Positions 5,123-43,921 of a DNA stretch of 64,000 nucleotides are shown here, one piece after another. The first letter of the stretch is position 1; the number at the start of each line of letters is the position of its first letter. This stretch comes from Oscillospiraceae bacterium. Lineage in GTDB: Bacteria; Bacillota_A; Clostridia; Oscillospirales; Oscillospiraceae. Location of the stretch: NCBI GenBank assembly GCA_015067895.1, contig SVLP01000006.1, positions 1 through 64,000 of the forward strand, given 5' to 3'. A model generated the notes under the pieces. It had not been told where the DNA came from. It searched no databases and was given only the letters and a program-made list of their open reading frames with translations. A program made the position numbers and the translations under genes.

Positions 5123-5616
5123 CAGTGAAAAAATGGATCTGGGTATGGGAATTTGACAAGGAGGAGCAGTGGCTCAACACCATGGCCCAGCAGGGCTGGG
5201 TGCTGGATCGGGTGGGCTTCTGCCGGTATGAATTCGTCAAATGTGAGCCGGGCGAATACATCGTCCGTCTGGAGATGCGGGAGCATGATGAGGGGTACTT
5301 AAGCTTCATGGCCGACACCGGCGCGGAATATGTGGGCCGGATGGCCAAGTGGATCTACTTCCGCCGGAAGACGGAGCACGGCCCCTTCGACATCTTCTCA
5401 GATCTGGATTCCCGGCTGGAGCACCTGAAGAGGATCTCCTGGACGCTGCGGTTCGTGGGTATCGCCAATCTGGCCATCGGACTGGCAAATTCCCTGAATC
5501 CGGTGGTGGATTTCGGCTGGGTCAACCTGCTGTGTGCCACGCTGCTGATGTACGGCCTGGGCCGCATCGAGGGCAAGCAGGAGGCACTGGAGAAGGATCG
5601 GCTGCTGATGGAGTAA
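5107..5616 (+). CDS. DUF2812 domain membrane protein
   Basis: 169 aa. The N-terminal half matches the DUF2812 pattern: KKWIWVWEFDKEEQWLNTMAQQGW, then an RYEFxxxEPGEYIVRLE strand. Two hydrophobic segments follow (about residues 112-150), then a charged tail. DUF2812 proteins are commonly encoded directly behind PadR regulators. The 16-bp overlap here fits that, and suggests a membrane partner or target of the regulator. The biochemical function is not known. No terminator is obvious; a short palindromic repeat follows. Confidence 0.8.
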   Translation: MSERMTVKKWIWVWEFDKEEQWLNTMAQQGWVLDRVGFCRYEFVKCEPGEYIVRLEMREHDEGYLSFMADTGAEYVGRMAKWIYFRRKTEHGPFDIFSDLDSRLEHLKRISWTLRFVGIANLAIGLANSLNPVVDFGWVNLLCATLLMYGLGRIEGKQEALEKDRLLME

Positions 5617-5674
5617 GGAACTGTAATTCCGTAGGGGCGACCCTCGGTTCAATGTCAAAAACTTAAGGATGATT

Positions 5675-5704
5675 GTAGGGAACGGCCTCCGTGCCGTTCC
5701 CTAC
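5675..5704. repeat. REP-like palindrome, GTAGGGAACGG family
   Basis: GTAGGGAACGGC pairs with GCCGTTCCCTAC around a short loop. Relatives in this window are at 12608-12633, 12723-12748 and 22788-22814, all intergenic. Confidence 0.75.
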
Positions 5705-5725
5705 GATATTGTACATAAAATGAAG

Positions 5726-5757
5726 ACAGCCAGCAGTGGAAATTCACTGCTGGCTGT
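5726..5757 (-). terminator. Terminator of the ABC export operon
   Basis: A 13-bp near-perfect stem (ACAGCCAGCAGTG with CACTGCTGGCTGT) lies just downstream of the leftward permease gene, followed on that strand by a T-rich stretch. Confidence 0.65.
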
Positions 5758-5761
5758 TCGT

Positions 5762-7063
5762 TTACTCTCTGCGGAGTGCTTCGATGGGGTTGAGGTTTGC
5801 GGCCTTGACGGCGGGCAGCATGCCGAAGACGATGCCGATGACCATGGAGAAGACCACGCTGATGATGGTGGCGGGGATGTCGATGGCCACGGGGACACCG
5901 TTGGAGGCGGAGATCAGGTGGGCGAAGCCGATGCCCAGGGCCACGCCGATGAGACCGCCCATGCTGGTCAGGGTGGCGGCCTCCGTCAGGAACTGGCGGC
6001 GGATGCGCTTCTTCTTGGCGCCCAGGGCCTTCTTCAGGCCGATCTCGCTGGTACGCTCGGTGACGGAGACCAGCATGATGTTCATGACGCCGATGCCGCC
6101 CACCAGCAGGGAGATGCTGGCGATCCAGATCAGCTGCTGGTTGGTGGCGTTGGACATCTCCTGGAGCTGCTGGGCCTGCTGCAGCAGATCCTGGCTGCGG
6201 TAGGAGAAGGCACCGGTGTAGCTGCCGGAATTCGTGATGTCGTCGCCGATCTCCTCATCGGCGGTGCCGGAGGAGAGGAGCTGGGTCTCGTTCAGGGCGT
6301 CCGCCACCGCCTGGCCCGCCCGGGTCATGGTGTCGGTGGAGGTGGCCTTGACCGCCACGCTCTGGGGCTCGTCGAAGTAGAAGACCATGGGCCAGACAGA
6401 GCTGGGCAGGAAGATGGCACCGGCGGAGGTATCCGCGTACATATAGTAGTCGTTGTAGCTGGAGATGGCAGGCTCAAAGGTGGAGGTCTGCTCCGCCACA
6501 CCGACGACAGTGAAGGGCTCACCCTTGATCTCCAGCACCTTGCCGATGGGCAGCTCCAGGCCGAAGAGGGCCGCAGCGGCCTTCCTGTCCACGATGGCCA
6601 CCTTGCGGAAGCCGTCGTAGTCCTGCTGGTCAAAATCCCGGCCATAGGTGACGGTGTAGCCGTTGACCCGGAAGAAGGCGGAGTCGATGCCATAGGTCTC
6701 GCCGGAGAACCGGTTTTCCCCGGCACTGACGAAGTCCGACCAGTTGCGGCGGGTGAAGAGACTGACCTCCTCCACGCCGGAGAGCCGGTTCAGGGAGTCC
6801 CGGAGGCTGTCCTCGATGACGCGGACGCCGGAGGGCAGGGGAGAGTAGGTCATGTCGTACTCCCAGTCGTCCTGGAAGAGGGAGACGGTGACCACATTGC
6901 TGCCGGAGCCGATCAGGTTCTCCTTGATCTGCTCGTTGGTGCCCTTGATGGTGGAGACGATGGTGATGATGGAGGCGATGCCGATGATGATGCCCAGCAT
7001 CGTCAGGAAGGAGCGCAGCTTATGGCCCCAGATGCCCTGGAAGGCAAGTCTGATATTTTCCAT
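5762..7063 (-). CDS. MacB/YknZ-like ABC transporter permease
   Basis: 433 aa with MacB/FtsX architecture. There is one N-terminal membrane segment in LRSFLTMLGIIIGIASIITI, then an extracytoplasmic MacB-PCD-like domain (about residues 45-300), then three C-terminal membrane segments. The FtsX signature GGIGVMNIMLVSVTERTSEIG and the terminal NPIEALRRE are clear. It is the last gene of a leftward operon encoding adaptor, ATPase, adaptor and permease. The complex should export a peptide, antimicrobial or lipid-like molecule, or transmit force to the wall. The substrate is not evident. Confidence 0.9.
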   Translation of the reverse strand: MENIRLAFQGIWGHKLRSFLTMLGIIIGIASIITIVSTIKGTNEQIKENLIGSGSNVVTVSLFQDDWEYDMTYSPLPSGVRVIEDSLRDSLNRLSGVEEVSLFTRRNWSDFVSAGENRFSGETYGIDSAFFRVNGYTVTYGRDFDQQDYDGFRKVAIVDRKAAAALFGLELPIGKVLEIKGEPFTVVGVAEQTSTFEPAISSYNDYYMYADTSAGAIFLPSSVWPMVFYFDEPQSVAVKATSTDTMTRAGQAVADALNETQLLSSGTADEEIGDDITNSGSYTGAFSYRSQDLLQQAQQLQEMSNATNQQLIWIASISLLVGGIGVMNIMLVSVTERTSEIGLKKALGAKKKRIRRQFLTEAATLTSMGGLIGVALGIGFAHLISASNGVPVAIDIPATIISVVFSMVIGIVFGMLPAVKAANLNPIEALRRE

Positions 7064-7075
7064 GTGCAGCCCTCC

Positions 7076-8891
7076 TTAATAGCCGTAGAGATCCTGGTCG
7101 GTGCCCTCATAGGTGGGAGCACCCTCTGCGACCTCGCTGCCGTAGGGGAAGGCCAGGTAGTCTTCCTCGGTGATGCCGGAATAGATGGGGGTCATGTAGC
7201 CGTCGGAGGAGACGCCGCACTCTAAGTACCGCTTCTCCAGCAGGCCGTCGGCGTTTCGGACGAAGACATAGCTGCGGTTGCCCTCGGAGCGCAGGAACGC
7301 GTTCTGCAGGTACAGGATGCCCGCTGCCTGTTCGGCGGTCTGGTAGGTCATGCTGACGTAGAAGCCCTCCTGAAGGTCGGCGCTTTCGTCGATGAAGACC
7401 TTGTAGGGGTAGAAGGAGACATTGGCGGAGCCGTAGGAGTAGCCCTGCTCCTCCACGGGATAGCTGCCGATCTCCACCACCTCGCCGGTGTACACGGCGC
7501 CGGTGTCCCAGGAGTTGACGGTGACGCTCTGGCCGATCTGGAGGGTCTTCAGGGCCAGCTCGCTGACGGTGCCCTCCACATAGTAGCCGCCGCCGCCGGT
7601 GACCTTCATCAGCGGCTCGCCGGTCTCCAGCGCCGCGGCGGGCTCCAGGATCTCAGAGACCACGCCGTTGAAGTCTGCCGTGATCTTGCCGTCCTGGGCC
7701 TCCTTCTTCATGATGTTCAGCTCGGCCTTGCCCATTTTGATGTCAAACTGGAGCTGCTTGATCTCGGCCTGCTTCTCGTTTTTCATGGCGGTCAGCTCGG
7801 CGGAGGTGTAGCCGTCGTTCCACTGCAGCGTGCCGCTGTCCTCCTTGGGTGCGGAGGGGGGCGTGAAGAAGGACATGGTGTATTTGGTGACCGTCTGCTG
7901 GGCGGGAGCGGGGGTGTGCACAGGCTCCTCAGCGGTGACGGGGGCAGCCTCTTCGGTCTGTACGGACGCGATGGAGGCGGGCTCCGCAGCGCCGGAGGGC
8001 TCGGAAGGCTCCGAAGGCTCAGAGGGCTCGGAGGGCTCGGAGGGTTCAGAGGGGACAGAGGGCTCCGAAGGCTCAGAGGGTTCGGAGGGTTCCGAAGGCT
8101 CAGAGGGTTCGGAGGGTTCCGAAGGCTCGGAGGGTTCGGAGGGTACGGAGGGCTCAGAGGGTTCAGAAGGCTCCGTGGGCTGCGTGGGTGTAGGGGGGAG
8201 CAGCTCGGCGGTCTTGGTGAACTTGACGCCGGTATGGACGGTAAACTCGGTGTTTGCCCGATTTCCGCTGCTCATCTGGAAGACCACATAGATCGTATTC
8301 GGCGTATTCTGGGCCTTGGAGAACAGGTAATCGATCATGGCATCATCCACCTGAGTGCTGGTCTTGAGCCACATGTACAGGGGGGAGGTCTGAGACCTGC
8401 CGGTGGTCTTGGTGCTGTAGACGGTGTCGATGAGCTTGGGATCCGAGGGGGACTTGGTATAGTCGGTCTTGGCGGTGGAGGAGGAGCTGGAGCCGGGCTT
8501 GTAGACGATGGGCTTCATCTTCTTCAGGGCGGTCAGCTCCGCCTGGGCGGTTTTCAGCTCCACCTCCAGCTGCTGATTGGCCAGATCCTTGCGCTCGATG
8601 GCAAGGTCGGTGAGGGTGGTGTCATAGGTGAAGAGAACGTCGCCCTTCTTGACCACCTGGCCGGGATAGACCAGGATCTCGGTGACGGTCTGGGTGCCGG
8701 AGAGGTAGAGGGACTGCACCTTGTCGGTGGTGACCATGCCATAGCTCTCCGAGGAGCCGGAATAGTAGTCGGTGTAGCCCACCATGGTCACGGGGAACAC
8801 GGCGGCCTCCTCCTTGGGCAGCCGGGGCACCACGACGATGCCCACGATCACGGCGATGGCCAGCACCGCAGCGACGATGGGGATCCAGATA

Positions 8892-8905
<14 letters not shown>
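7076..8905 (-). CDS. HlyD/YknX-like adaptor with Ser-Glu-Pro repeat insert
   Basis: 609 aa. After an N-terminal membrane anchor (residues about 6-27) comes a biotinyl-lipoyl-like half-motif (VTEILVYPGQVVKKGDVLF), a coiled-coil arm, a long insert, the second coiled-coil arm and the C-terminal beta domains. The insert holds about 20 near-tandem EPS units (EPSEPSEPSVPSEPSEPSEP style; DNA about 7994-8190). That low-complexity spacer is unusual for the family and could span the wall. The gene overlaps the upstream ATPase by 14 bp and is 12 bp from the permease. It is the second adaptor in the operon. Confidence 0.85.
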
Positions 8906-9605
<700 letters not shown>

Positions 9606-12859: not shown

Positions 12860-14839
12860 ATGGCAAAAAAGACGCAAAAATATGATAATTCCAGCATTTC
12901 CATGCTGAAGGGCGAGGAGCGTGTCCGGAAGCGTCCGGCGGTCATCTTCGGCTCCGACGACTTGGAGGGCTGCAAGCATGCAGTCTTCGAGATCCTCTCC
13001 AACGCCATCGACGAGGCTCGTGAGGGACACGGCGACACCGTCATCGTCACCCGGTACGAGGACAATTCCGTCGAAGTCGAGGACTTCGGCCGGGGCTGCC
13101 CCGTGGACTGGAACGAGAAGGAGAAGCGGTTCAACTGGGAGCTGGTCTTCTGCGAGATGTACGCAGGCGGCAAGTACGGTGAAAACGGCGAGAACTACGA
13201 GTACTCCCTGGGCCTGAACGGTCTGGGCTCCTGCGCCACCCAGTACGCCTCCCGGTTTTTTGACGCGGTGGTGCGCCGGGACGGCTTCAAGTACACCCTC
13301 CACTTCGAGCGGGGCCGGAACATCGGGGGCCTCCACAAGGAGCCCGCTGACCGCAAAAAGACCGGCTCCATCTTCCGCTGGCAGCCCGACGACGAGGTCT
13401 TCACCGACATCCGCATCCCCGCCGACTACTACCGGGATGTGCTGAAGCGGCAGGCGGTGGTGAATCCCGGCATCCGCTTCAAGTTCCGCAACCAGGTGGG
13501 CAAGTCCTTCGAGACCGAGGAATACTGCTACGAAAACGGCATCCGGCAGTACCTCGAAGAGATCGTGGGCGACGATGCCTTCACCATGCCTGTTTTCTGG
13601 GAGGCCGAGCGCCGGGGACGGGACGCGGCCAACCGTCCCGAGATGAAGCTGAAGATCACCGCATCCTTCTGCTTCAGCAAGAAATTCAGCAAGACCGAGT
13701 ATTACCACAACTCCTCCTGGCTGGAGTACGGCGGCAGTCCCGACAAGGCGGTGCGCTCCGCCTTCACCGCCGCCTTCGACAAGTTCCTCCGGGAGAACAA
13801 CAAATACACCAAGAACGAGAGCAAGATCACCATCCAGGATGTGCTGGACAGCCTGGTCATCATCACAAACTGCTTCTCCACCATCGGCTGCTTTGAGAAC
13901 CAGACCAAAAAGTCCGTCAACTCCAAGTTCACCCAGGATGCCATGACCGCCTTCTTCAAGGAGCAGCTGCAGGTCTGGTTCCTGGAGAACCGGCAGGAGG
14001 CCGACCGGGCGGCGGAGCAGATCCTGGTCAACAAGCGGGCCCGTGAGTCCGCCGAGAAGACCAAGTCCAATGTGAAGAAGAAGCTCTCCGGCTCCGTGGA
14101 CATCGCCAACCGGGTGCAGAAATTCGTGGACTGCCGCAGCAGGGACACCGCCCTTCGGGAGCTCTACATCGTCGAGGGTGATTCCGCTTTGGGCTCCGTC
14201 AAAATGTCCCGGGACGCGGAATTTCAGGGCATCATGCCCATCCGGGGCAAGATCCTCAACTGCCTGAAGGCGGACTACAACCGCATCTTCGCCAGCCCCA
14301 TCATCACGGATCTCATGAAGGTCTTGGGCTGCGGCGTGGAGATCACCGGCAAGAAAATGAAGGAGCTGAGCTCCTTTGATCTTGATAACCTGCGCTGGAG
14401 CAAGGTCATCATCTGTACCGATGCCGACTACGACGGCTTCCAGATCCGCACCCTGGTGCTGACCATGCTCTATAGGCTTTGCCCCACGCTGATCCAGGAG
14501 GGCTACGTCTACATCGCAGAATCCCCCCTTTTCGAGATCACCTGCAAGGACAAGACCTGGTTCGCCTACAACGAGGCGGAGAAGACCGAGATCCTGCGAA
14601 AGCTCGGCGACAAGAAGGTCAAGATCCAGCGATCCAAAGGTCTCGGTGAGAACGACCCGGAGATGATGTGGATGACCACCATGAACCCCGACACCCGCCG
14701 TCTCATCAAGGTCATGCCCGAGGACGCAGAGCGCACCGCCTGGTACTTCGACGTCCTGCTGGGCGACGAGCTGGCTCAGCGGAAGGACTTCATCGCGGAG
14801 AATGGCGCGAAGTACCTGGAGCTTGCGGATATTTCCTAA
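12860..14839 (+). CDS. Type IIA DNA topoisomerase subunit B (ParE-like)
   Basis: 659 aa. The GHKL ATPase has the catalytic Glu (E44 in AVFEILSNAIDEA), DFGRGCPVD and GLNGLG motifs. A transducer region follows, then the TOPRIM domain with VEGDSA (E439) and DADYDG (D521, D523, D525). The family more often has EGDSAGG and DADVDGSHI, so this is a diverged member. With the A subunit downstream it forms a second gyrase/topo IV-type enzyme that passes DNA duplexes using ATP. Pairing with a ParC-like subunit lacking a GyrA box favours decatenation. The ribosome binding site is weak. Confidence 0.88.
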   Translation: MAKKTQKYDNSSISMLKGEERVRKRPAVIFGSDDLEGCKHAVFEILSNAIDEAREGHGDTVIVTRYEDNSVEVEDFGRGCPVDWNEKEKRFNWELVFCEMYAGGKYGENGENYEYSLGLNGLGSCATQYASRFFDAVVRRDGFKYTLHFERGRNIGGLHKEPADRKKTGSIFRWQPDDEVFTDIRIPADYYRDVLKRQAVVNPGIRFKFRNQVGKSFETEEYCYENGIRQYLEEIVGDDAFTMPVFWEAERRGRDAANRPEMKLKITASFCFSKKFSKTEYYHNSSWLEYGGSPDKAVRSAFTAAFDKFLRENNKYTKNESKITIQDVLDSLVIITNCFSTIGCFENQTKKSVNSKFTQDAMTAFFKEQLQVWFLENRQEADRAAEQILVNKRARESAEKTKSNVKKKLSGSVDIANRVQKFVDCRSRDTALRELYIVEGDSALGSVKMSRDAEFQGIMPIRGKILNCLKADYNRIFASPIITDLMKVLGCGVEITGKKMKELSSFDLDNLRWSKVIICTDADYDGFQIRTLVLTMLYRLCPTLIQEGYVYIAESPLFEITCKDKTWFAYNEAEKTEILRKLGDKKVKIQRSKGLGENDPEMMWMTTMNPDTRRLIKVMPEDAERTAWYFDVLLGDELAQRKDFIAENGAKYLELADIS

Positions 14840-31723: not shown

Positions 31724-31739
31724 AAGTGTGTTCAAATGC

Positions 31740-31859
31740 CTTGCCTCCTCCATTTATGGGGGAGGTGGCCGAGCGAAGCGAGGTCGGAGGGGGTCTGCCC
31801 GCTTTTTACAGAAAAGCGGGCAGTTTCGCATATTTGCAAAGCAAATATGCGGACTCCTC
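31740..31859. repeat. Left half of a host palindromic repeat interrupted by the Mu-like element
   Basis: Starts CTTGCCTCCTCCATTTATGG; contains the GTGGCCGAGCGAAGCGAGG motif, then two hairpins (GCCCGCTTTT with AAAAGCGGGC; GCATATTTGC with GCAAATATGC). Its right half is 39145-39191, ending ATGCGGGGGGCAAG. Joining the halves through one TCCTC copy gives a repeat of about 160 bp with imperfect inverted ends. A short relative is at 43862-43921. Confidence 0.8.
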
Positions 31860-31976
31860 TGTAATGCACCGCGCAAATCGTGAAAACGCAAAATACGAAA
31901 AATGCCTGTAAAATCAAGCCTTTTTCGCTCTAGGACTAAAGGCACAAAGCGTTAAAAATGCCACCCTAAAGGACAT

Positions 31977-32039
31977 AAAAGAGCCCCTTCTAAATGCAAC
32001 TGCCATGCAGCTTCAGGCATTTAGAAAGGGCTCTTTTTT
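31977..32039. terminator. Long bidirectional terminator at the element's left side
   Basis: AAGAGCCCCTTCTAAATGC pairs with GCATTTAGAAAGGGCTCTT, followed by T residues rightward. It ends the leftward repressor transcript 16 bp after its stop and shields the element from host transcription. Confidence 0.75.
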
Positions 32040-32054
32040 GAAAAGATGTTGTTC

Positions 32055-32405
32055 TTATTCGCTGGAACCGTTGGGGTACTTTCCAAGTTTGAAATCAAGA
32101 ATGCACTGTATCTCCACTTTGTCAGACAGATTAAGTCTCCTGAATTTGCGGACGAGCAAGCGTTCTTCCTCTGCCAAAGATATTTCGTCAGCATCTTCTA
32201 CAATCCTAAACGGCTGCACCAAAGAATCAATCAGTTCGCCGTAGTAGTCAGAAAGAGCCTGTAAAGTTGATAAGGATGGGTCATTTTTCCCATTTTCAAG
32301 ACCGCTATAATTACCTTGTGATATTCCAAGTTCCTGTGCAATTTGCTTTTGGGTTAGGGCGTTTTTTAGCCTTAGCTCCTTGATTTTCTCACTAAAATAT
32401 GACAT
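32055..32405 (-). CDS. XRE-family repressor of the Mu-like element
   Basis: 116 aa from ATG 32405 (GGAGGTAACC upstream). An HTH of the Cro/CI type at residues about 6-60 (IKELRLKNALTQKQIAQELGISQGNYSGLENGKNDPS) is followed by a helical tail that probably dimerises. It is transcribed away from the transposase operon across a shared operator region, the usual place for a Mu c-type repressor. It probably keeps transposition off. It is not related in sequence style to Mu c itself (which is a winged helix), so it is an analogous replacement. Confidence 0.85.
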   Translation of the reverse strand: MSYFSEKIKELRLKNALTQKQIAQELGISQGNYSGLENGKNDPSLSTLQALSDYYGELIDSLVQPFRIVEDADEISLAEEERLLVRKFRRLNLSDKVEIQCILDFKLGKYPNGSSE

Positions 32406-32428
32406 TTGGTTACCTCCGTGCCCCTGTT

Positions 32429-32540
32429 GATTTAGTTCTAAATCAAAATTGCGACAAAAAAATATCTGAATAATGATTGACAATATCGAAAAATAGATAT
32501 ATACTAATACATATCAGATATATAATATATTATATCAGAT
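32429..32540. promoter_or_regulatory. Early promoter and operator region of the Mu-like element
   Basis: Rightward promoter TTGACA (32477-32482), 17-bp spacer, TATACT (32500-32505). A perfect palindrome GATTTAG-TT-CTAAATC (32429-32444) lies near the repressor start. ATATCAGAT occurs at 32511-32519 and 32532-32540, with a related inverted copy ATATCTGA near 32462. These are the likely binding sites of the repressor and the Ner-like HTH. Confidence 0.65.
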
Positions 32541-32567
32541 TTTGAATTCCGTCAAGGAGGTAATCAC

Positions 32568-32792
32568 ATGAAATACTGTGTCAATGTTAAGAAAATCAAA
32601 ATTGCTAGGCTAAACATGGGATTATCTCAGACCGATTTAGCGCAGCGTTCAGGGGTTTCTTACCTTGCGATAAACCGTCTTGAGAACCAAAAGACGACCA
32701 GCCCGCATCCTCAAACAATTAAGAAAATCTGCGATGTTCTCAATCTGCAAGTCGCCGATGTTTGCGCATTCCGAGGAGGCGGTGAAACATGA
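32568..32792 (+). CDS. Small XRE HTH protein (Ner/Cro-like)
   Basis: 74 aa, essentially one helix-turn-helix domain (VKKIKIARLNMGLSQTDLAQRSGVSYLAINRLENQKT). It lies first in the early operon, directly before the transposase, which it overlaps by 4 bp (ATGA). In Mu the Ner protein in this place turns down both early and repressor transcription; I infer the same here. AAGGAGG precedes the ATG. Confidence 0.85.
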   Translation: MKYCVNVKKIKIARLNMGLSQTDLAQRSGVSYLAINRLENQKTTSPHPQTIKKICDVLNLQVADVCAFRGGGET

Positions 32793-34759
32793 CATGGATA
32801 ACCCCACAGGATGCAGCAAAACTGTGCTCCTGTGACGCTAGTACAATCCGCAGAAAAGCAAATCGTGGTGCTTTCGGTGAAGAAGGTTTCCGTTACATAA
32901 ACGGTTCAACAGGCAGGGGCGGCAAGCGGCTCGAAATCCTCCTTGAAGCACTCCCACCTGAGGCGCAGACGGCCTATCACAACCAGCACGGTGAAGCCTC
33001 CAAGCCGATCATCAACCGGGAACAGTACACCCTTTCTCAAAGGGAGAAGGGAGAGCAGCGAGCCCAGGCAGTTAGCCAGTACAGCAAATATCGCCGGGAG
33101 CAGCACAGGGCAGGCCAGACGAAAGAAACGGAAATCATGCAGTCTTTCGTTGAGCAATGGAACGCCCTGCATCCCGACTTCACGTTCACCACGAAGACCC
33201 TGTATGAATGGCGGCGCAAGAGTAAAGCGGGCGATCCTGAGAAGCTGGTTGACAAGCGCGGCGGCTACAATCGTGGCAAGAGCTCCATCCCGGAGGAGAT
33301 GTTGACTTACTTCAAACATCTGTACTTGCAGGAGAGCAAACCCTCTGTTGCAAACTGCTTCCGGCTCACACAATATGAAGCGAACCGGCGTGGGGTCGTA
33401 ATCCCAGGTATCCGAGCATTTGAGCTTGCAGCGGCAAACATCCCCGCCCCCATCGTTGCGCTGTATCGCGAAGGTGGGAAGTATTTCTCAGACCGTTATA
33501 TGCCCTACTCCGAACGGGACTATGAGGAACTGGCTCCCAACGACCGTTGGGTATCGGATCACCATTTATGGGATGTATTCGTTCGTGTGCCGGATAGCGA
33601 CGGCGGGTGGCGAGCAATCAGGCCGTGGGGAACCTACTGGATGGATATGCGGACACGCAAAGTGGTTGCAAGTATCGTCCGAAATGACGACCCTGATGCT
33701 GATGTAGTGGTGTGCAGCTTCGGAATCGGCGTGGAGGACTACGGCGTTCCCCGCTCCGTGTTGCTGGATAACGGCAGAGATTACAAGGCCAAAGACGTAT
33801 TCAATAAGCAATGTGAGGAAGTAATTGACTCCCTGGCGAACAATTTGCAGATTGATACAGTCTACGCTATTCCTTATAATGCCAAAGCAAAGCCCATCGA
33901 GAGAACCTTTGACACCTTTGAACAGCAATTCGGCAAGCTACAACCCACTTACGCCGGAAGCAATGCAAAGGTCAGACCCGAAAGCCTGCATGATCTGGAT
34001 ATCATGGAATATCCCACGCTGGATGAATTCATTGCAATGCATGACCAGTATGTCTATGAGATATACAACGAAAGTCCACATAGCGGTTCTTACATGCACG
34101 GGAAGTCCCCGAATCAGATGTACGCAGCCTTACCTTTCGCAGTGCGTCGGGTTACAAAGAAAGTGTTGTATTTCAGTCTGATGCGGGTAAAGGGACACCG
34201 TGTTGTGCAGAGAAACGGCATTACATTTAACCATGTTCATTTTTATAACGATTGCGTTATCAATTACATTGGTAAGACCGTATATGCCCGTTATAGTCCC
34301 AAAGAGCCGGATATTCTCTACATTTTCGATGAAAATCAAAACTATCTATTCAGCGCGTCCAAAGTCCAGAAAATGACCTTTAATCCCACCGCTAAAAACT
34401 ACGAGTATGAGAACGGTCGGCGCAAGAGGGCACGCCACGAAGCCCTTGGCGGCTACAAGCCCAATAAGGGTATTAGGACAGTTCAGGGTGCGCAAGAACT
34501 CGTTGCAGGGGCGGCAGCGGCTCACCAGAAGGCACCTAAGGCAGCTCCCAACGTAACCGAGATTATCCGCAACCCGCAGCTCGAAGAAACCGCCCGGCGC
34601 GCTGATACGACTGATGCAGAGCGGCAGTATCGGGACGCTGTTGAGAAGCAGCTCGCAGCAAAGCAAGCGAAGGATTCGCAGAAGAAGCGATATGCGGATG
34701 TATTCAAGCAAATCTGCGCCGAACGATCTCAGCAATCCCGCAAAGCGGCAAATGGTTAA
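32789..34759 (+). CDS. MuA-like DDE transposase
   Basis: 656 aa (Mu A is 663). The N-terminal part has an HTH-like segment (WITPQDAAKLCSCDASTIRRKANR) resembling the Mu DNA-binding domain. The core has a DDE triad: Asp257 (WVSDHHLWDVFV, aligned with the Mu GDGYLHNVFV stretch), Asp327 (VLLDNGRDY) and Glu371 (KPIERTF). A beta-barrel region follows, then a charged helical tail (about 580-656) of the kind that contacts MuB. All catalytic residues are present, so it is probably active, consistent with the intact ends and target duplication. Confidence 0.95.
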   Translation: MTWITPQDAAKLCSCDASTIRRKANRGAFGEEGFRYINGSTGRGGKRLEILLEALPPEAQTAYHNQHGEASKPIINREQYTLSQREKGEQRAQAVSQYSKYRREQHRAGQTKETEIMQSFVEQWNALHPDFTFTTKTLYEWRRKSKAGDPEKLVDKRGGYNRGKSSIPEEMLTYFKHLYLQESKPSVANCFRLTQYEANRRGVVIPGIRAFELAAANIPAPIVALYREGGKYFSDRYMPYSERDYEELAPNDRWVSDHHLWDVFVRVPDSDGGWRAIRPWGTYWMDMRTRKVVASIVRNDDPDADVVVCSFGIGVEDYGVPRSVLLDNGRDYKAKDVFNKQCEEVIDSLANNLQIDTVYAIPYNAKAKPIERTFDTFEQQFGKLQPTYAGSNAKVRPESLHDLDIMEYPTLDEFIAMHDQYVYEIYNESPHSGSYMHGKSPNQMYAALPFAVRRVTKKVLYFSLMRVKGHRVVQRNGITFNHVHFYNDCVINYIGKTVYARYSPKEPDILYIFDENQNYLFSASKVQKMTFNPTAKNYEYENGRRKRARHEALGGYKPNKGIRTVQGAQELVAGAAAAHQKAPKAAPNVTEIIRNPQLEETARRADTTDAERQYRDAVEKQLAAKQAKDSQKKRYADVFKQICAERSQQSRKAANG

Positions 34760-34774
34760 CAAGGAGGAGATATC

Positions 34775-35476
34775 ATGTTGAAACCACCGGCTGCACAAAC
34801 GACCTGCTTAAACGAGGTCTACTTTGCGGCCCATTATGCACAATCTTATGGGGACATTTCGTTGATCTACGGCGAGGCGGGGGTTGGTAAAACCTTCGCC
34901 CTCCGGCAATACGCAGCAGAGAATGATACAATCTATATCGAACTCCGGGACTGCGATAAGTCCACCAAAGGCGTCTGTGAACGCATCCTGTCGGTGATCG
35001 GCAAGAGCCGCCGGGGAAATGACCGGGCACTTGTTAACGCCATCATCGATTATCTCAAAGAGCATCCTAAGCTAATCATCATCGACGAAGCACAGCACCT
35101 TCTCTTGAAAGCAATCGAAAACCTCCGTGCAATCAACGACGCAACGGAAACCGGGATGGTGCTGTGCGGAAACCCCACAGTTTACGACCAAATGCACGGC
35201 AGAGGACAAGCACATTTCGCCCAGCTCTACAGCCGCATCGGGATAAGGAGGTGTATTGACAATCCCGATATGGACGATATCAAAGCCATCTTCGCCCCCT
35301 ACGATCTTGACAGCGAAAGCCTCCGTTTCCTTCATAAACTGGGGCTGCAATGGGGCGGAATCCGTAACTGTATCAAGATATTCAACATGGCGCAGGAAAT
35401 GGCGCAAGGGTCAAAGGAGCCCCTCTCCGTTGGGCACCTTGAATCCGCATACGACCTCAGAAACGGCAACCAATGA
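34775..35476 (+). CDS. MuB-like AAA+ target-selection ATPase
   Basis: 233 aa. Walker A GEAGVGKT (about residues 33-40), Walker B LIIIDEAQHL, a sensor Asn in VLCGNPTVYD, and a C-terminal helical bundle. It is shorter than Mu B (312 aa) because the N-terminal HTH is absent. MuB polymerises on DNA, delivers target to the transposase and gives immunity to self-insertion. It is 15 bp after the transposase with AAGGAGGAG, so the two are coexpressed. Confidence 0.92.
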   Translation: MLKPPAAQTTCLNEVYFAAHYAQSYGDISLIYGEAGVGKTFALRQYAAENDTIYIELRDCDKSTKGVCERILSVIGKSRRGNDRALVNAIIDYLKEHPKLIIIDEAQHLLLKAIENLRAINDATETGMVLCGNPTVYDQMHGRGQAHFAQLYSRIGIRRCIDNPDMDDIKAIFAPYDLDSESLRFLHKLGLQWGGIRNCIKIFNMAQEMAQGSKEPLSVGHLESAYDLRNGNQ

Positions 35477-35558
35477 AAAGGGGCTTGGCAGTCTGGCCAC
35501 TGCCATCCCCATTATAGCACGGTTCACCCTAATTTGCAAACAGAAAGGAACGGTGATT

Positions 35559-35975
35559 ATGGGAACAACATCAACACAGCCCGTCACGCAAGCGCAGCTT
35601 CGCAAGATATATGCAGAGGCGCGTGACGCAGGGCTCGACAACGATTATCTCCATGAGCTAATACGCAGCATTCACGGCAAGGAGAGCTTGAAAGAATTAG
35701 AGAAATGGGAAGCTGCCATGCTCATAGATGCGCTGGTTGAAATGAACGGCGGCGCGGATCGGCCTGGAATGATTACCGAGCGGCAAGCCTGGATGCTGGC
35801 AGAATACCAACTCAAGCTCGGTTGGACGGATGAACGGATGCGCCGCTTTGTCAAGAAGTATGGTCATGTGGAGTTTGTCCACTGGCTCACCAAACAGGGA
35901 GCCTCAAAGATTATCGAAGCCTTGAAGAACATCCACGCAAAACAGCCTAAGGAGGAAATTAGCAATGCTCAATAA
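35559..35975 (+). CDS. GemA-like phage regulatory protein
   Basis: 138 aa from ATG 35559 (AGAAAGGAA upstream). Matches the GemA/DUF1018 pattern: TQAQLRKIYAEARDAGLDNDYLHELIRSIHGKESL, then LSxxEA-like ALIDAL and a helical tail. In Mu-like phages GemA modulates host gene expression and replication state. The early operon order transposase-ATPase-GemA follows other Mu-like phages. It overlaps the next gene by 11 bp. Confidence 0.85.
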   Translation: MGTTSTQPVTQAQLRKIYAEARDAGLDNDYLHELIRSIHGKESLKELEKWEAAMLIDALVEMNGGADRPGMITERQAWMLAEYQLKLGWTDERMRRFVKKYGHVEFVHWLTKQGASKIIEALKNIHAKQPKEEISNAQ

Positions 35976-36285
35976 ACTGGTTATCGATTCGATGCGCGAC
36001 AACTTTAATGAGACTTTTGGTCGGCTCAGCATGCGCAGTACTTACCTAAAAGAGGCCATGGAGAACGTTCGGAAGAATCCGGGTATCATGAGCCTGACCC
36101 AGGCGCAGAGAGATGATATCGAAGATGAACTCTATGTTGTGATGTCTGCGTCCAGCGTTCTCGGCTACTACATCGGCTTGCACGAAGGTGCGGACATGAT
36201 CCAATCCCTCTGCTCCGGCGATCTCCCGGAGAAGCTGCTTGATGCATTTGGCGAACTGAGCCCCTACTGCGGACAGCCCCTGTAA
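35965..36285 (+). CDS. Unknown protein of the Mu-like early operon
   Basis: 106 aa, overlapping the GemA gene by 11 bp with AAGGAGGAA upstream. Predicted helical and acidic (DDIEDELYVVMSASSVLGYYIGLHEGADM). No family recognised. It is the last early gene before a perfect 17-bp-stem terminator. By position it may be an accessory to replication or host takeover. Confidence 0.75.
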   Translation: MLNKLVIDSMRDNFNETFGRLSMRSTYLKEAMENVRKNPGIMSLTQAQRDDIEDELYVVMSASSVLGYYIGLHEGADMIQSLCSGDLPEKLLDAFGELSPYCGQPL

Positions 36286-36293
36286 GATGCGTT

Positions 36294-36330
36294 ATCCCCC
36301 CGTTATCACGCGTGATAACGGGGGGATTTT
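36294..36330 (+). terminator. Terminator of the early operon
   Basis: ATCCCCCCGTTATCACG and CGTGATAACGGGGGGAT form a perfect 17-bp inverted repeat, followed by TTTT. It separates the rightward early genes from the leftward capsid cassette. Confidence 0.88.
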
Positions 36331-36389
36331 AGTGTTCATGAGGCAAGAGCCGCTGCCCTCTAAAACGGCTCACAGTGGCTCAGAGCGGC

Positions 36390-37340
36390 TTACAGGGAGC
36401 CACCGCCATATCGTTTCACATCGTCAGTGGTCAAACCCAAAAGCTCATGCGCACGGGAACAGGTTTTCCCATCCTTGAGCGTCAGCGGCTCAAAAGCAAT
36501 CTCCCCCATAGGAACCACCTGAGGTGCAGATTTAACCCAGCTCTTGAAGCTCTCCAGATTCGTCATAGCGGAGCTGAACGCCCAATCCTTCTGGAAAGGC
36601 ATAATCTTTCCTGCTTTCAATGCAGTGAGCACGGCTTCATCAGCCTTATCCTTATGCGCCTCAAACCGCAGGGAGTTGACTTCCAGTGACAGAGCATTGC
36701 GAGCCTGGATCAGCTCTGCAATCTGGCTTGCGATATCTGCAACAGGCGCATCGTTAGGCAGTTTCAACATTTCGCGCAGCGTGTTGATGAATGCATCTAC
36801 ATCTACCTTCTCATCGTTGCCGGAGCTGGAATGCTGCTTGCTATCATCTTCGCCCATGCCGGTGCTCGGTACTTCATCACGGTTTGAAGGTTTCGCAGAG
36901 TTGACAATGGCTGTCATACCATCAATTGCGGGAGTGTTTGTCAGAGCAACAGAATGGAGCTTCAACGCCTTTCTATCATTCTCTCTGACAGAAACCACCG
37001 GTGACAGGTATCTGTATTCCTTCTTAGCAAGGTATTGTGCTGCTCGTGCCGTCCATTCAACAGACCCGTAAATGCCATCGGGTCTCATGGATAAGGCTTT
37101 AATCCATCCTGCGGCAGGGGCTTCGACATTATGCAAGGTCTGATGCTCGTAATCAATGGGAATATCAACACCATGAGACTTGAAATGTCCCAGGATGCTC
37201 AGGAACGATTCATCATCAACCAGAAAGTTCCCTTTTTGGCTTTTCACCAGTCCCAGAGGAAAGAGCTTGATCTCCTTGGGAAGGTTTCCCCGATCCGATT
37301 CCAGAGCATTGACAACGGGAATCAATACGGTACGATTCAT
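36390..37340 (-). CDS. Mu gpI-like prohead protease with scaffold region
   Basis: 316 aa. The N-terminal half matches Mu-like I proteins: KLFPLGLVKSQKGNFLVDDES, DIPIDYEHQTLHN, APAAGWIKAL, then YLSPVVSV and KLHSVALTNTPAIDGM. Asp-Tyr-Glu-His and the Ser-Val-Ala-Leu-Thr-Asn stretch hold the likely catalytic residues. The C-terminal half (about 150-316) is helical and polar, as in the fused scaffold (Mu Z). It starts 3 bp after gpT. In Mu, I comes before T; here the order is reversed. Confidence 0.88.
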   Translation of the reverse strand: MNRTVLIPVVNALESDRGNLPKEIKLFPLGLVKSQKGNFLVDDESFLSILGHFKSHGVDIPIDYEHQTLHNVEAPAAGWIKALSMRPDGIYGSVEWTARAAQYLAKKEYRYLSPVVSVRENDRKALKLHSVALTNTPAIDGMTAIVNSAKPSNRDEVPSTGMGEDDSKQHSSSGNDEKVDVDAFINTLREMLKLPNDAPVADIASQIAELIQARNALSLEVNSLRFEAHKDKADEAVLTALKAGKIMPFQKDWAFSSAMTNLESFKSWVKSAPQVVPMGEIAFEPLTLKDGKTCSRAHELLGLTTDDVKRYGGGSL

Positions 37341-37343
37341 TGA

Positions 37344-38249
37344 TTAGCCCTCCCCAGTCGAGCCGTCAGAACCATAGGCAAGCTGCCACAGGCCGAAGCC
37401 TGCATTGCAGCGCATATCTGCGCCATAGATGTATTCGTTGTTGAAGAATACATTGTCGTCGCTGGGACTGGTCTTTGCGACCAAAGCAGGCTTGCGCCGA
37501 TTCTGGAAGATGAAAGGCTTGATTACCTTCGCCGTACAGAGAAGGAACCACATATCAGGATTCCGCACCAACTCCGGCGCAACCAGAACCTCGGCAGTGC
37601 CTTTGTAGATGTTCGTTTCATGGTTGATTTCCTCGGCATACACGATACGCCGTGCAGCAGCCTCATTCTGCGGAGACACAACCAGCAGATCCGGGACAAT
37701 GTAGAGCGGCTCACCCGCATCATCAACCAGAGACATCATGGACGCACGGGCAGCACCATAGCTTGCGGGCGTGAGTTTGTCAGTACCCTTGTTGCTCTGT
37801 TTCTCCTCTTTCTGGGCGTACAGATAGGGGTGTGCGTCGGAAATGAAGGGAACACCATCATAACCATGCTCAACAAAGCTCCTGGGCAGCAGGCCAAAAA
37901 CCAGCTTATCAGGATGCTTGCGGGAACTTTCCGCGAGATCCTGAATCATGGGCTTGTAGACACCGATTCGGTCATCCTCAATATCATTGCGGCTAACCGA
38001 AACAGTTTTCTCAAACAATTTGTTCTTGATGGTGTAAGTGTGTGCCTTGAGATTGCGGATTACTCTGGAGCCGACCCACTCTCTCATGCTGGGCATCGCA
38101 CCCAACCATGCGTAGTTTTCGTCGTTTGCTTCGGAGGGAACCTCCATAGCGATTTTGGGATAAAGAACAGTCGTTTCTTCATAGGTCTTGTTAAAAACCG
38201 TGTTGAAGCTGCTGTAAATCTCCCGAAGCGAGCTTGTATTTACGATCAT
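37344..38249 (-). CDS. Mu gpT-like major head protein
   Basis: 301 aa from ATG 38249 with AAGGAGGATC upstream (Mu T is about 305 aa), so full length. Typical marks are MIVNTSSLREIYSSFNTVFN, MPSMREWVGSRVIRNL, KLFEKTVSVSRNDIEDD, and near the end a GADMRCNAGFGLWQLAYGS stretch. It should form the HK97-fold capsid shell. Its start overlaps the Mor stop (ATGA), which couples capsid translation to the activator. No portal or terminase is encoded anywhere in the element. Confidence 0.92.
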   Translation of the reverse strand: MIVNTSSLREIYSSFNTVFNKTYEETTVLYPKIAMEVPSEANDENYAWLGAMPSMREWVGSRVIRNLKAHTYTIKNKLFEKTVSVSRNDIEDDRIGVYKPMIQDLAESSRKHPDKLVFGLLPRSFVEHGYDGVPFISDAHPYLYAQKEEKQSNKGTDKLTPASYGAARASMMSLVDDAGEPLYIVPDLLVVSPQNEAAARRIVYAEEINHETNIYKGTAEVLVAPELVRNPDMWFLLCTAKVIKPFIFQNRRKPALVAKTSPSDDNVFFNNEYIYGADMRCNAGFGLWQLAYGSDGSTGEG

Positions 38250-38560
38250 ACTTGATCCTCCTTTGCTTTTCGACCAGCAGCGGAGCTCGTCGCTTTCTGG
38301 CCTATGATTTGAACCCATCTCTGACTAACGTTGTACTTCCGAGCAAGTTCGTCCACATTGTATCCGTTGAATTCCTCGCGGATTTTCTGGTCACGCAGCG
38401 GACGCAGCATCGATGCTTTCTGCGGAAGATAAAACGTGGAACCTCCAACCAATGAAGCCAGTCTCAAAAGATTGTCCGTCCCGATTTCTTCTGCAATTGC
38501 CCGACACATTCCCTCCGGCAGCATATCAAGGGTGAGCTCTGTTTCCCATTCTTCCAGCAT
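38246..38560 (-). CDS. Mor/C-family transcription activator
   Basis: 104 aa from ATG 38560. A Mor-like dimerisation region (MLPEGMCRAIAEEIGTDNLLRLASLVGGSTFYLP) leads into an HTH (IREEFNGYNVDELARKYNVSQRWVQIIG). In Mu, Mor switches on the middle promoter and C the late ones. Here it is the first gene of the gpT-gpI cassette, so it probably activates that cassette in a self-reinforcing way. Its upstream region has TGTAATTCT repeated at 38600-38608 and 38614-38622, a candidate binding site. Confidence 0.88.
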   Translation of the reverse strand: MLEEWETELTLDMLPEGMCRAIAEEIGTDNLLRLASLVGGSTFYLPQKASMLRPLRDQKIREEFNGYNVDELARKYNVSQRWVQIIGQKATSSAAGRKAKEDQV

Positions 38561-38705
38561 GGTATCAACCACCTTCCTGCAATGCACTTGCGCTTTTATT
38601 GTAATTCTGCTTCTGTAATTCTTACATACGAAGCACTTCACAGAAGTAATTCATAGTACAAAGCGGCGTAAATGCGACACAATATGGACGAAAGGGGGAA
38701 AACAT

Positions 38706-38987
38706 ATGAGAATGTTTCAAGTTGACAGGCTTAAGTGCAAGCCAGAGCTTGTGGCGATGTTGATTCAAGGCTATACACTTCATGAAATAGCTGAGTTTGT
38801 CAACCAGCGCGGTGAGGTATGCTCCCAATCTTCGATTGACCGATATCTGAAACGTAAATTGATCGAAGGGCGCATTTACACCGACGGCAGTATTGAGATA
38901 AAAGAAAGAGAAGGGCATCAGACCAGAGCGATCCGATACTCTTCTCAGGGTGGTGCTTACATAGTAAGCTCGATTGAGTTGTCATAA
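38706..38987 (+). CDS. Small unknown protein next to the right end
   Basis: 93 aa, with AGGGGGAAAA before the ATG at 38706. Residues about 8-55 look like a DNA-binding helix-turn-helix (LVAMLIQGYTLHEIAEFVNQRGEVCSQSSIDRYLKRKL). The remainder is a short beta-rich tail. Divergent from mor. I infer a regulator of the capsid cassette or of late functions; no family recognised. Confidence 0.7.
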   Translation: MRMFQVDRLKCKPELVAMLIQGYTLHEIAEFVNQRGEVCSQSSIDRYLKRKLIEGRIYTDGSIEIKEREGHQTRAIRYSSQGGAYIVSSIELS

Positions 38988-39097
38988 ATATGTGTTGGCT
39001 GAGTAGGTAAAAAACTTTCCCAGTTTACCCCAGACCAGTCCCACGCATTACCAAAGTATCCCAACGTATCCCAACGTATCTAGCCGTATCCCAGTAT

Positions 39098-39144
39098 TTC
39101 ACGGTTTGTATGTCGCATATTCACGGTTTACAGAGAGTATTACA
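39098..39144. other. Right-end transposase binding sites
   Basis: TTCACGGTTT occurs at 39098-39107 and 39120-39129, exactly 22 bp apart, the spacing of adjacent MuA sites R1 and R2. Just inside (39052-39093) lies a run of GTATCCCA-type direct repeats, which may be further sites. The gene-free stretch 38988-39224 otherwise holds the element end, the target duplicate and the host repeat half. Confidence 0.8.
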
Positions 39145-39191
39145 TCCTCCCTGGCCTGCGGCCATCCCCCCTCATAAATGCGGGGGGCAAG
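39145..39191. repeat. Right half of the interrupted host palindromic repeat
   Basis: Begins with the target duplicate TCCTC and continues CCTGGCCTGCGGCC, then the CCCCCCTCATAAATGCGGGGGG hairpin and CAAG. Its reverse complement matches the start of the left half at 31740 (CTTGCC, ATTTATG, GGCCG blocks). Confidence 0.75.
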
Positions 39192-43792: not shown

Positions 43793-43861
43793 GGGGGACA
43801 CCTCCAAAAATCATGGAACCATCATACCCCAATCCAAGCATGATTGCAACCACAAATGATC

Positions 43862-43921
43862 CTTGCCTCCCCCATTTATGGGGGCGGTGGCCGAGCGAAG
43901 CGAGGTCGGAGGGGGGGCAAG
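43862..43921. repeat. 60-bp palindromic repeat, CTTGCC family
   Basis: CTTGCCTCCCCCATTTATGG at the start and GGGGGGGCAAG at the end, with the GTGGCCGAGCGAAGCGAGG motif between. A short version of the repeat split by the Mu-like element at 31740/39191. Confidence 0.75.

Follow-up and report, generated by a model that had tools for sequence, protein, structure and literature searches.

Why should a transposon of the Mu type, only 7,285 bp long, encode the capsid protein and the head protease of a phage but apparently little else of a virion? The question is raised by a locus in a 64,000-nucleotide stretch of the genome of an Oscillospiraceae bacterium (assembly GCA_015067895.1, contig SVLP01000006.1, positions 1 to 64,000; termed the window below), where the element occupies positions 31860-39144. 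A first-pass annotation of the sequence had described it as a complete Mu-like transposon rather than a decayed prophage and had suggested that it may be a transposable satellite. As shown below, the element is one of a family of units, 7.3-8.3 kb in length, in which the capsid/protease module is kept and no portal, large terminase subunit (TerL), or tail genes were detected. Judging from its genes, the element is probably a replicatively transposing phage satellite, which would supply its own capsid and depend on a helper for TerL, portal, tail, and lysis functions.

The left terminus reads TGTAATGCACC... from position 31860 and the right terminus, inverted, reads TGTAATACTCTC... from position 39144. 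The matched TG...CA ends are flanked on both sides by the 5-bp target duplication TCCTC, and the 40-bp termini are identical at 28 of 40 positions. In the surrounding 21 kb, there are 16 TGT...ACA pairs with a perfect 5-bp duplicate and a spacing of 5.5-9.5 kb; the runner-up reached a score of 17 vs 28. A matrix built from six ends, i.e., those of the window element itself and of two relatives (L011 and L012), gave the left terminus a score of 33.4, compared to 9.4 for the best nonterminal site. The G+C content is 0.492 within the element vs 0.592 and 0.613 in the flanks. Both a MuA-type DDE transposase and a MuB-type ATPase are encoded, and the DDE triad (D257, D327, and E371) is invariant in all four aligned MuA proteins (window, L004, L005, and L006), so that the complete transposon and the intact triad of the first-pass annotation were borne out. 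In the IMG/VR database, contig L002 contains the same unit with both junctions at the identical place and 10/10 proteins identical, and contig L003 covers the right junction, with all seven proteins in range identical to those of the window; the insertion has therefore been inherited within one lineage. Beside the left end, a 63-bp stretch (31733-31793) recurs with 94% identity 12 kb away at 43853-43915 and represents a host repeat.

The features of the element are compiled in Table 1. The genes of gpT and gpI are full length and lie next to that of the Mor activator. Every open reading frame (ORF) of the element with at least 170 residues is one of the recognized genes or antisense to one. 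For comparison, Faecalibacterium phage FP_Mushu (MG711460, 36.6 kb) was used, which shares MuA, MuB, GemA, Mor, gpI, and gpT with the element, as do other Mu-like phages, but also has TerL, portal, gpF, Z, tail, baseplate, and lysis genes, with gpI before gpT; the window unit has one fifth of its length. Queries with FP_Mushu TerL, portal, gpF, and tail proteins gave no match within the 64-kb window at E≤1e-4, and neither these queries nor the ORF inventory revealed portal, TerL, tail, or lysis genes. A separate scaffold (Z) was not found with the FP_Mushu gene panel in the window, and the order typical of Mu-like phages, in which gpI precedes gpT and Z lies between them or close by, is not present. 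A larger prophage around the element was considered and rejected, as the gene panel gave no further match across the window. The claim that capsid and protease are the only virion genes is perhaps not strictly true, as the orf93 product weakly resembles a small terminase subunit (TerS). The structure prediction for gpT had a predicted local distance difference test (pLDDT) value of 36.6, and no fold claim was drawn from it. The best match of the window gpT in the phage collection was 54% identical.

Table 1. Features of the 7,285-bp element and its target duplication in window coordinates (HTH, helix-turn-helix)
Feature	Position	Strand	Evidence
Target duplication, left copy TCCTC	31855..31859	.	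5 bp
Left terminus (repressor/MuA side), TGTAATGCACCGCGCAAATCGTGAA...	31860..31899	+	28/40 vs inverted right end; matrix score 33.4
Repressor-like HTH protein, 116 aa	32055..32405	-	PF01381 3.3e-15
Small Cro/Ner-like HTH protein, 74 aa	32568..32792	+	PF01381 5.2e-13
MuA-type transposase, 656 aa, D257/D327/E371	32789..34759	+	phrog_310 1e-101; PF09039, PF09299, PF02914
MuB-type ATPase, 233 aa	34775..35476	+	phrog_296 7.6e-50; PF09077 1.8e-8
GemA, 138 aa	35559..35975	+	PF06252 1.5e-10
orf106, family without Pfam domain, associated with small elements	35965..36285	+	Homologue distribution
34-bp perfect inverted repeat, between convergent units	36294..36327	.	Both-strand self match
gpI, head maturation protease, 316 aa	36390..37340	-	PF10123 2.1e-61; phrog_328 1.9e-60
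gpT, major capsid protein, 301 aa	37344..38249	-	PF10124 1.2e-95; phrog_371 7.9e-97
Mor-type late transcription activator, 104 aa	38246..38560	-	PF08765 3.2e-18
orf93, HTH protein, 93 aa, weak small-terminase-like candidate	38706..38987	+	phrog_426 6e-4; PF11985 0.028
Right terminus (Mor side), inverted TGTAATACTCTCTGTAAACCGTGAA...	39105..39144	-	End match and matrix scan
Target duplication, right copy TCCTC	39145..39149	.	5 bp

Eleven further IMG/VR loci encode a gpT 58-77% identical to that of the window. All of them have the order gpT-gpI, the reverse of that in FP_Mushu and six phage-type loci (L015-L020), and no complete set of structural genes was found in any of them: portal, TerL, gpF, Z, sheath, tail tube, and tape measure were detected in 0/11 loci. 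TerS is present in seven of the loci, a neck protein in four, and gpI in all; a gp26-like protein is also encoded by relatives. The gpT frame is open in 10/10 uncut relatives (L014 is cut) and that of gpI in 11/11. The matrix described above located ends in L004, L005, L007, L008, and L010, which agree with those of the window, although the end of L008 is weak (17.4 at the contig start, lower than an internal site with 19.5) and those of L010 are as well (17.6 and 19.5). Of the three findings that the first-pass annotation had named as refuting, none was obtained. The eight gpT elements with both ends located, that of the window included, measure 7,285, 8,205, 8,016, 8,042, 8,281, 7,974, 7,738, and 8,253 bp. 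L005 and L006, whose gpT proteins are 98% identical, differ in a neck/gpG gene after gpI, present in L006 and absent from L005 (3386-3484 in L005 vs 3308-3934 in L006). L007 encodes a Lar-like restriction alleviation protein inside the element (5999-6349; PF14354 2.7e-7). In the isolate that carries L012, the element adjoins a restriction enzyme of the DraIII type (PF21586 2e-83) and a weakly STAND-NTPase-like protein (L012 597-4713), and its insertion site is perhaps a defense region. A single-sequence scan of genome contigs with gpT gave one confirmed locus, in Helicobacter suis (36%), and a plasmid search with the L012 transposase gave no match above 29% identity. MT838167 (L165) was rejected as a small element; it is a phage fragment with the order gpI-Z-gpT.

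A scan with a second transposase group uncovered sister elements with other virion modules. In L094, Mor is accompanied by a scaffold (phrog_172 1.4e-25), TerS (phrog_426 3.6e-26), and a major head protein (phrog_422 2.9e-64) whose best phage match, in Streptococcus phage Javan246, is 53% identical; of a tape measure protein, the C-terminal part is present (phrog_1068 9.9e-32). L095 has the same scaffold and head protein, the contig being cut inside the latter. L091 combines a gpI protease domain (phrog_328 4.7e-47), a gp26-like protein, and TerS with a tape measure protein of 772 residues that is 56% identical to that of FP_Mushu, and it has no gpT. L092, a unit of 9,364 bp with a CAATC duplicate, encodes Mor and TerS, followed 60 bp further on by a portal (phrog_533 1.7e-48); its ends are the best of 38 duplicate-bearing pairs (21/40 vs 18 for the next). 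A Lar-like restriction alleviation protein is encoded inside this element, too (13738-14091; phrog_599 4.4e-8). In the phage contig L164, an "unverified" record, TerL is in two pieces and is flanked by TerS and by a portal that shares 48% identity with the L092 portal. In L093, which is cut, Mor is preceded by a coat-like protein (PF11651 3.4e-5). In L096 (525-1256 on the minus strand and 5452-8932), a window-type element comprising left end, repressor, MuA, and the first part of MuB is separated by about 4 kb from a phage small terminase that belongs to another family (phrog_509 6.6e-87), and the element may have inserted within a prophage or close to one. Overall, each small element examined consists of a Mu-type transposon plus one or two virion modules, often with TerS, and TerL was found in none of them, L093-L096 being cut and less informative.

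TerS without detected TerL occurs in 7/11 gpT relatives and in L091, L092, and L094. Like gp26 and the neck protein, TerS is common to Mu-like phages and relatives of the window element (38% identity between FP_Mushu and L012); TerS proteins of relatives match PF11985 at 1.6e-20 and 3.6e-21. Together with the sister elements, these findings strengthen the satellite idea of the first-pass annotation. With its weak matches to phrog_426 and Pfam Gp27 (PF11985), orf93 was rejected as a firm TerS. The gene orf106 is found in 7/11 small gpT loci and in L091, but in 0/67 other gpT loci. It has 157 homologues, and a Pfam domain was found in none of the 120 listed. For six of these 120, the longest contig equals in size that of a gpT homologue of rank ≤32, where about 0.04 would be expected by chance according to a rough estimate, which suggests that homologues of orf106 and gpT are linked on the same contigs. 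The orf106 product is predicted to form a helical hairpin (pLDDT of 76.5), and the predicted structure gave no match in the Protein Data Bank at E≤0.001; as a guess, it might act in packaging or head size. The inverted repeat downstream of orf106 in the window is probably a terminator. A similar repeat follows orf106 in L091 (5786-5816), with the common core CACGCGTG; the genes beyond it run in the same direction there, unlike the convergent units of the window. The repeat perhaps marks a conserved early/late boundary in both elements.

Several observations weigh against the satellite reading. A clear TerS is missing from the window element, which has orf93 at most, and from L004, in which none was found; orf93 itself is known from close relatives alone, with three homologues among the matches listed, the window's own included. 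The Mu-phage TerL query is a weak detector, finding only 7/67 control loci, and the absence of TerL from the small elements therefore rests on the ORF inventory. The gpI of L009 is short (234 residues), as is the TerS of L007 relative to its counterparts. A perfect 5-bp target duplicate is present in four of ten both-ended elements (window, L011, L012, and the portal-type L092). The flanking bases of L007 and L010 differ between the two sides, just three bases remain left of the L004 element, and they differ as well, and in L091, TATGC occurs on both sides, the left copy being offset by four additional bases. For L005 and L008, the contig ends leave no flank pair for comparison. Such mismatches could result from intramolecular replicative transposition or from contigs that mix copies.

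Alternatively, the elements could interfere with phages, the capsid, tape measure, or portal co-assembling with, and spoiling, the virions of a phage that invades the cell or already resides in it and thereby protecting the cell or the element; the element itself would move by intracellular transposition only. A single carried virion part of this kind suits a decoy, and some units also encode Lar-like restriction alleviation proteins. A decoy, however, needs neither a maturation protease nor TerS, which are encoded by 11/11 and 7/11 gpT loci, respectively, and packaging would ease spread to distant hosts. We therefore consider interference unlikely.

The selection acting on the virion genes and their phylogeny bear on a second alternative, namely, that the units are recurrent deletion remnants, i.e., shortened Mu-like prophages with kept ends, still transposable, whose gpT and gpI are functionless. 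Phage counterparts exist for most of the genes, and the shortened gpI of L009 and TerS of L007 would fit such decay. The ratios of nonsynonymous to synonymous substitution rates (dN/dS) in the close pairs L005/L006 and L008/L012 were 0.031 and 0.066 for gpT, 0.011 and 0.103 for TerS, and 0.068 and 0.069 for MuA; for gpI, the value was 0.072 (L005/L006 only). The mis-framed gpI of L008 was excluded, as were three window/L004 pairs and one window/L012 pair with saturated synonymous sites. Purifying selection on the virion genes is thus about as strong as on the transposase. In a gpT tree of 120 rows, the 11 small-element rows are split from 31 phage-type rows by a branch with an SH-like approximate likelihood ratio test (SH-aLRT) value of 98, and the label small or phage requires one change, compared to a mean of 9.8 in 500 shuffles. 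This tree, obtained by a quick search with LG+G4 and accompanied by long-branch warnings, comprised 78/120 listed homologues (P0001-P0070 and every fifth of P0075-P0120; 270-360 residues), 10/11 small loci plus the window (the cut L014 was left out), and 31/68 other loci (L015-L044 and L085), where "phage" denotes low-identity gpT loci, a full virion module not being confirmed for each. In the transposase tree, the 16 small elements form three clades with a support of 100 each, unmixed with 41 others, and the branch joining all 16 has a support of 39. The others are L097-L136 and L085, of which L097, L098, L110, L111, L114, and L121 were searched with the gene panel; L114 had a TerL match. The gpT of L010 falls into the small-element branch and its transposase into the L094 clade, which carries the other capsid; a virion module has therefore moved between transposons. 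Open genes with dN/dS values of 0.01-0.10 in relatives (0.03-0.10 for virion genes), the separate gpT branch, the fixed gpT-gpI order, reverse to that of FP_Mushu and L015-L020, the narrow range of element sizes, and transposases distinct from those of the phages used for comparison make deletion remnants very unlikely. Together with the ends, this agrees with the earlier view that the element is not a decayed larger prophage.

If the element is a satellite with its own capsid, derepression would cause it to copy itself by Mu-type transposition, and Mor would turn on the late genes. gpT and gpI would then assemble a procapsid around a helper portal, helper TerL would fill the head, with the TerS of the element (orf93 at most in the window) directing it to element DNA, and helper tail and lysis proteins would complete and release the particle, in which a small head near T=3 would replace the helper's full-size head. 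Particle formation, particle size, and the helper are deduced here from the genes. The head size is suggested by the narrow size range of 7.3-8.3 kb on the basis of a published genome-length model, which gives 8.1 kb for T~2.33 and a mean of 11.8 kb with a lower bound of 8.1 kb for T=3 (PMC7762592). In a third alternative, gpT joins helper heads, and the element travels with long host DNA in a full-size head. In support of this, transposable phages package host DNA past the right end by headful, as described for a Bacteroides phage, in which 29-31 bp of host DNA are packaged at the left end and 1-2.3 kb at the right (PMC12135933). An element of about 8 kb would, however, leave about 30 kb of a full-size head to be filled with host DNA, whereas element plus flank would fit a head near T=3; the own, constrained capsid and protease and the clustered sizes fit a dedicated head better, leaving this alternative a slim chance. 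That the shell serves a non-packaging use, e.g., as an encapsulin-like compartment, which consists of a shell protein with a cargo enzyme and has no protease or packaging genes, is extremely unlikely: a gpT type without detected portal and TerL would allow it, but gpT belongs to PF10124 and stands alongside the protease gpI, no cargo enzyme was recognized among the ORFs, and the TerS, gp26-like, and neck proteins of relatives indicate virion assembly and packaging.

The likeness to capsid-forming phage-inducible chromosomal islands (cf-PICIs) proposed in the first-pass annotation holds in idea but not in gene set. According to PMC10690885, cf-PICIs are chromosomal satellites with their own major capsid protein and head protease that use helper tails, and they also encode portal, connectors, and both terminase subunits. 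The window element likewise has its own capsid and head protease, and would likewise take its tails from a helper; portal and TerL were not found in elements of the gpT type, TerS and neck protein are present in 7/11 and 4/11 relatives, and mobility is by a Mu-type transposase. Staphylococcus aureus pathogenicity islands (SaPIs) combine their own TerS with helper TerL and remodel helper capsids by scaffold proteins (PMC10690885). The former is the strategy proposed here, though the window lacks a clear TerS; the present element differs in bringing its own capsid. The Streptomyces phage satellites MulchRoom and MiniFlayer, for which capsid genes are described along with small heads measuring 43.7 and 42.5 nm (PMC10690885), encode TerL, portal, and scaffold without replication genes, whereas the present unit shows the reverse, replication genes and no motor. 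In size and in having a major capsid protein, the present elements resemble nine gut contigs (7.3-8.5 kb) for which T~2.33 heads are predicted (PMC7762592).

Within the small-element branch, gpT homologues bear source names such as Desulfitobacterium, Tepidibacter, Ruminiclostridium, and Faecalicatena, and the source names of orf106 homologues include Dysosmobacter and Desulfosporosinus, all of which we take to be Clostridia. In the open PubMed Central literature (titles and abstract openings, without preprints and most subscription papers), no description of transposable phage satellites of this kind was found. It is, in our judgment, an evenly balanced proposition that these elements form a previously undescribed satellite class defined by Mu-type transposition, one swappable virion module (capsid and protease, scaffold and another capsid, tape measure, or portal), often TerS, use of helper TerL, and a capsid type near T=3, so far mainly in Clostridia-like sequences. 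If true, the satellite reading would unite two kinds of mobility that to our knowledge are known only separately, namely, replicative transposition and the packaging of a satellite in a shell of its own making. Virion modules are exchanged between transposon lineages, as L010 shows, and the capsid-encoding units of 7.3-8.3 kb would make the question of the "missing" very small heads of tailed phages directly testable.

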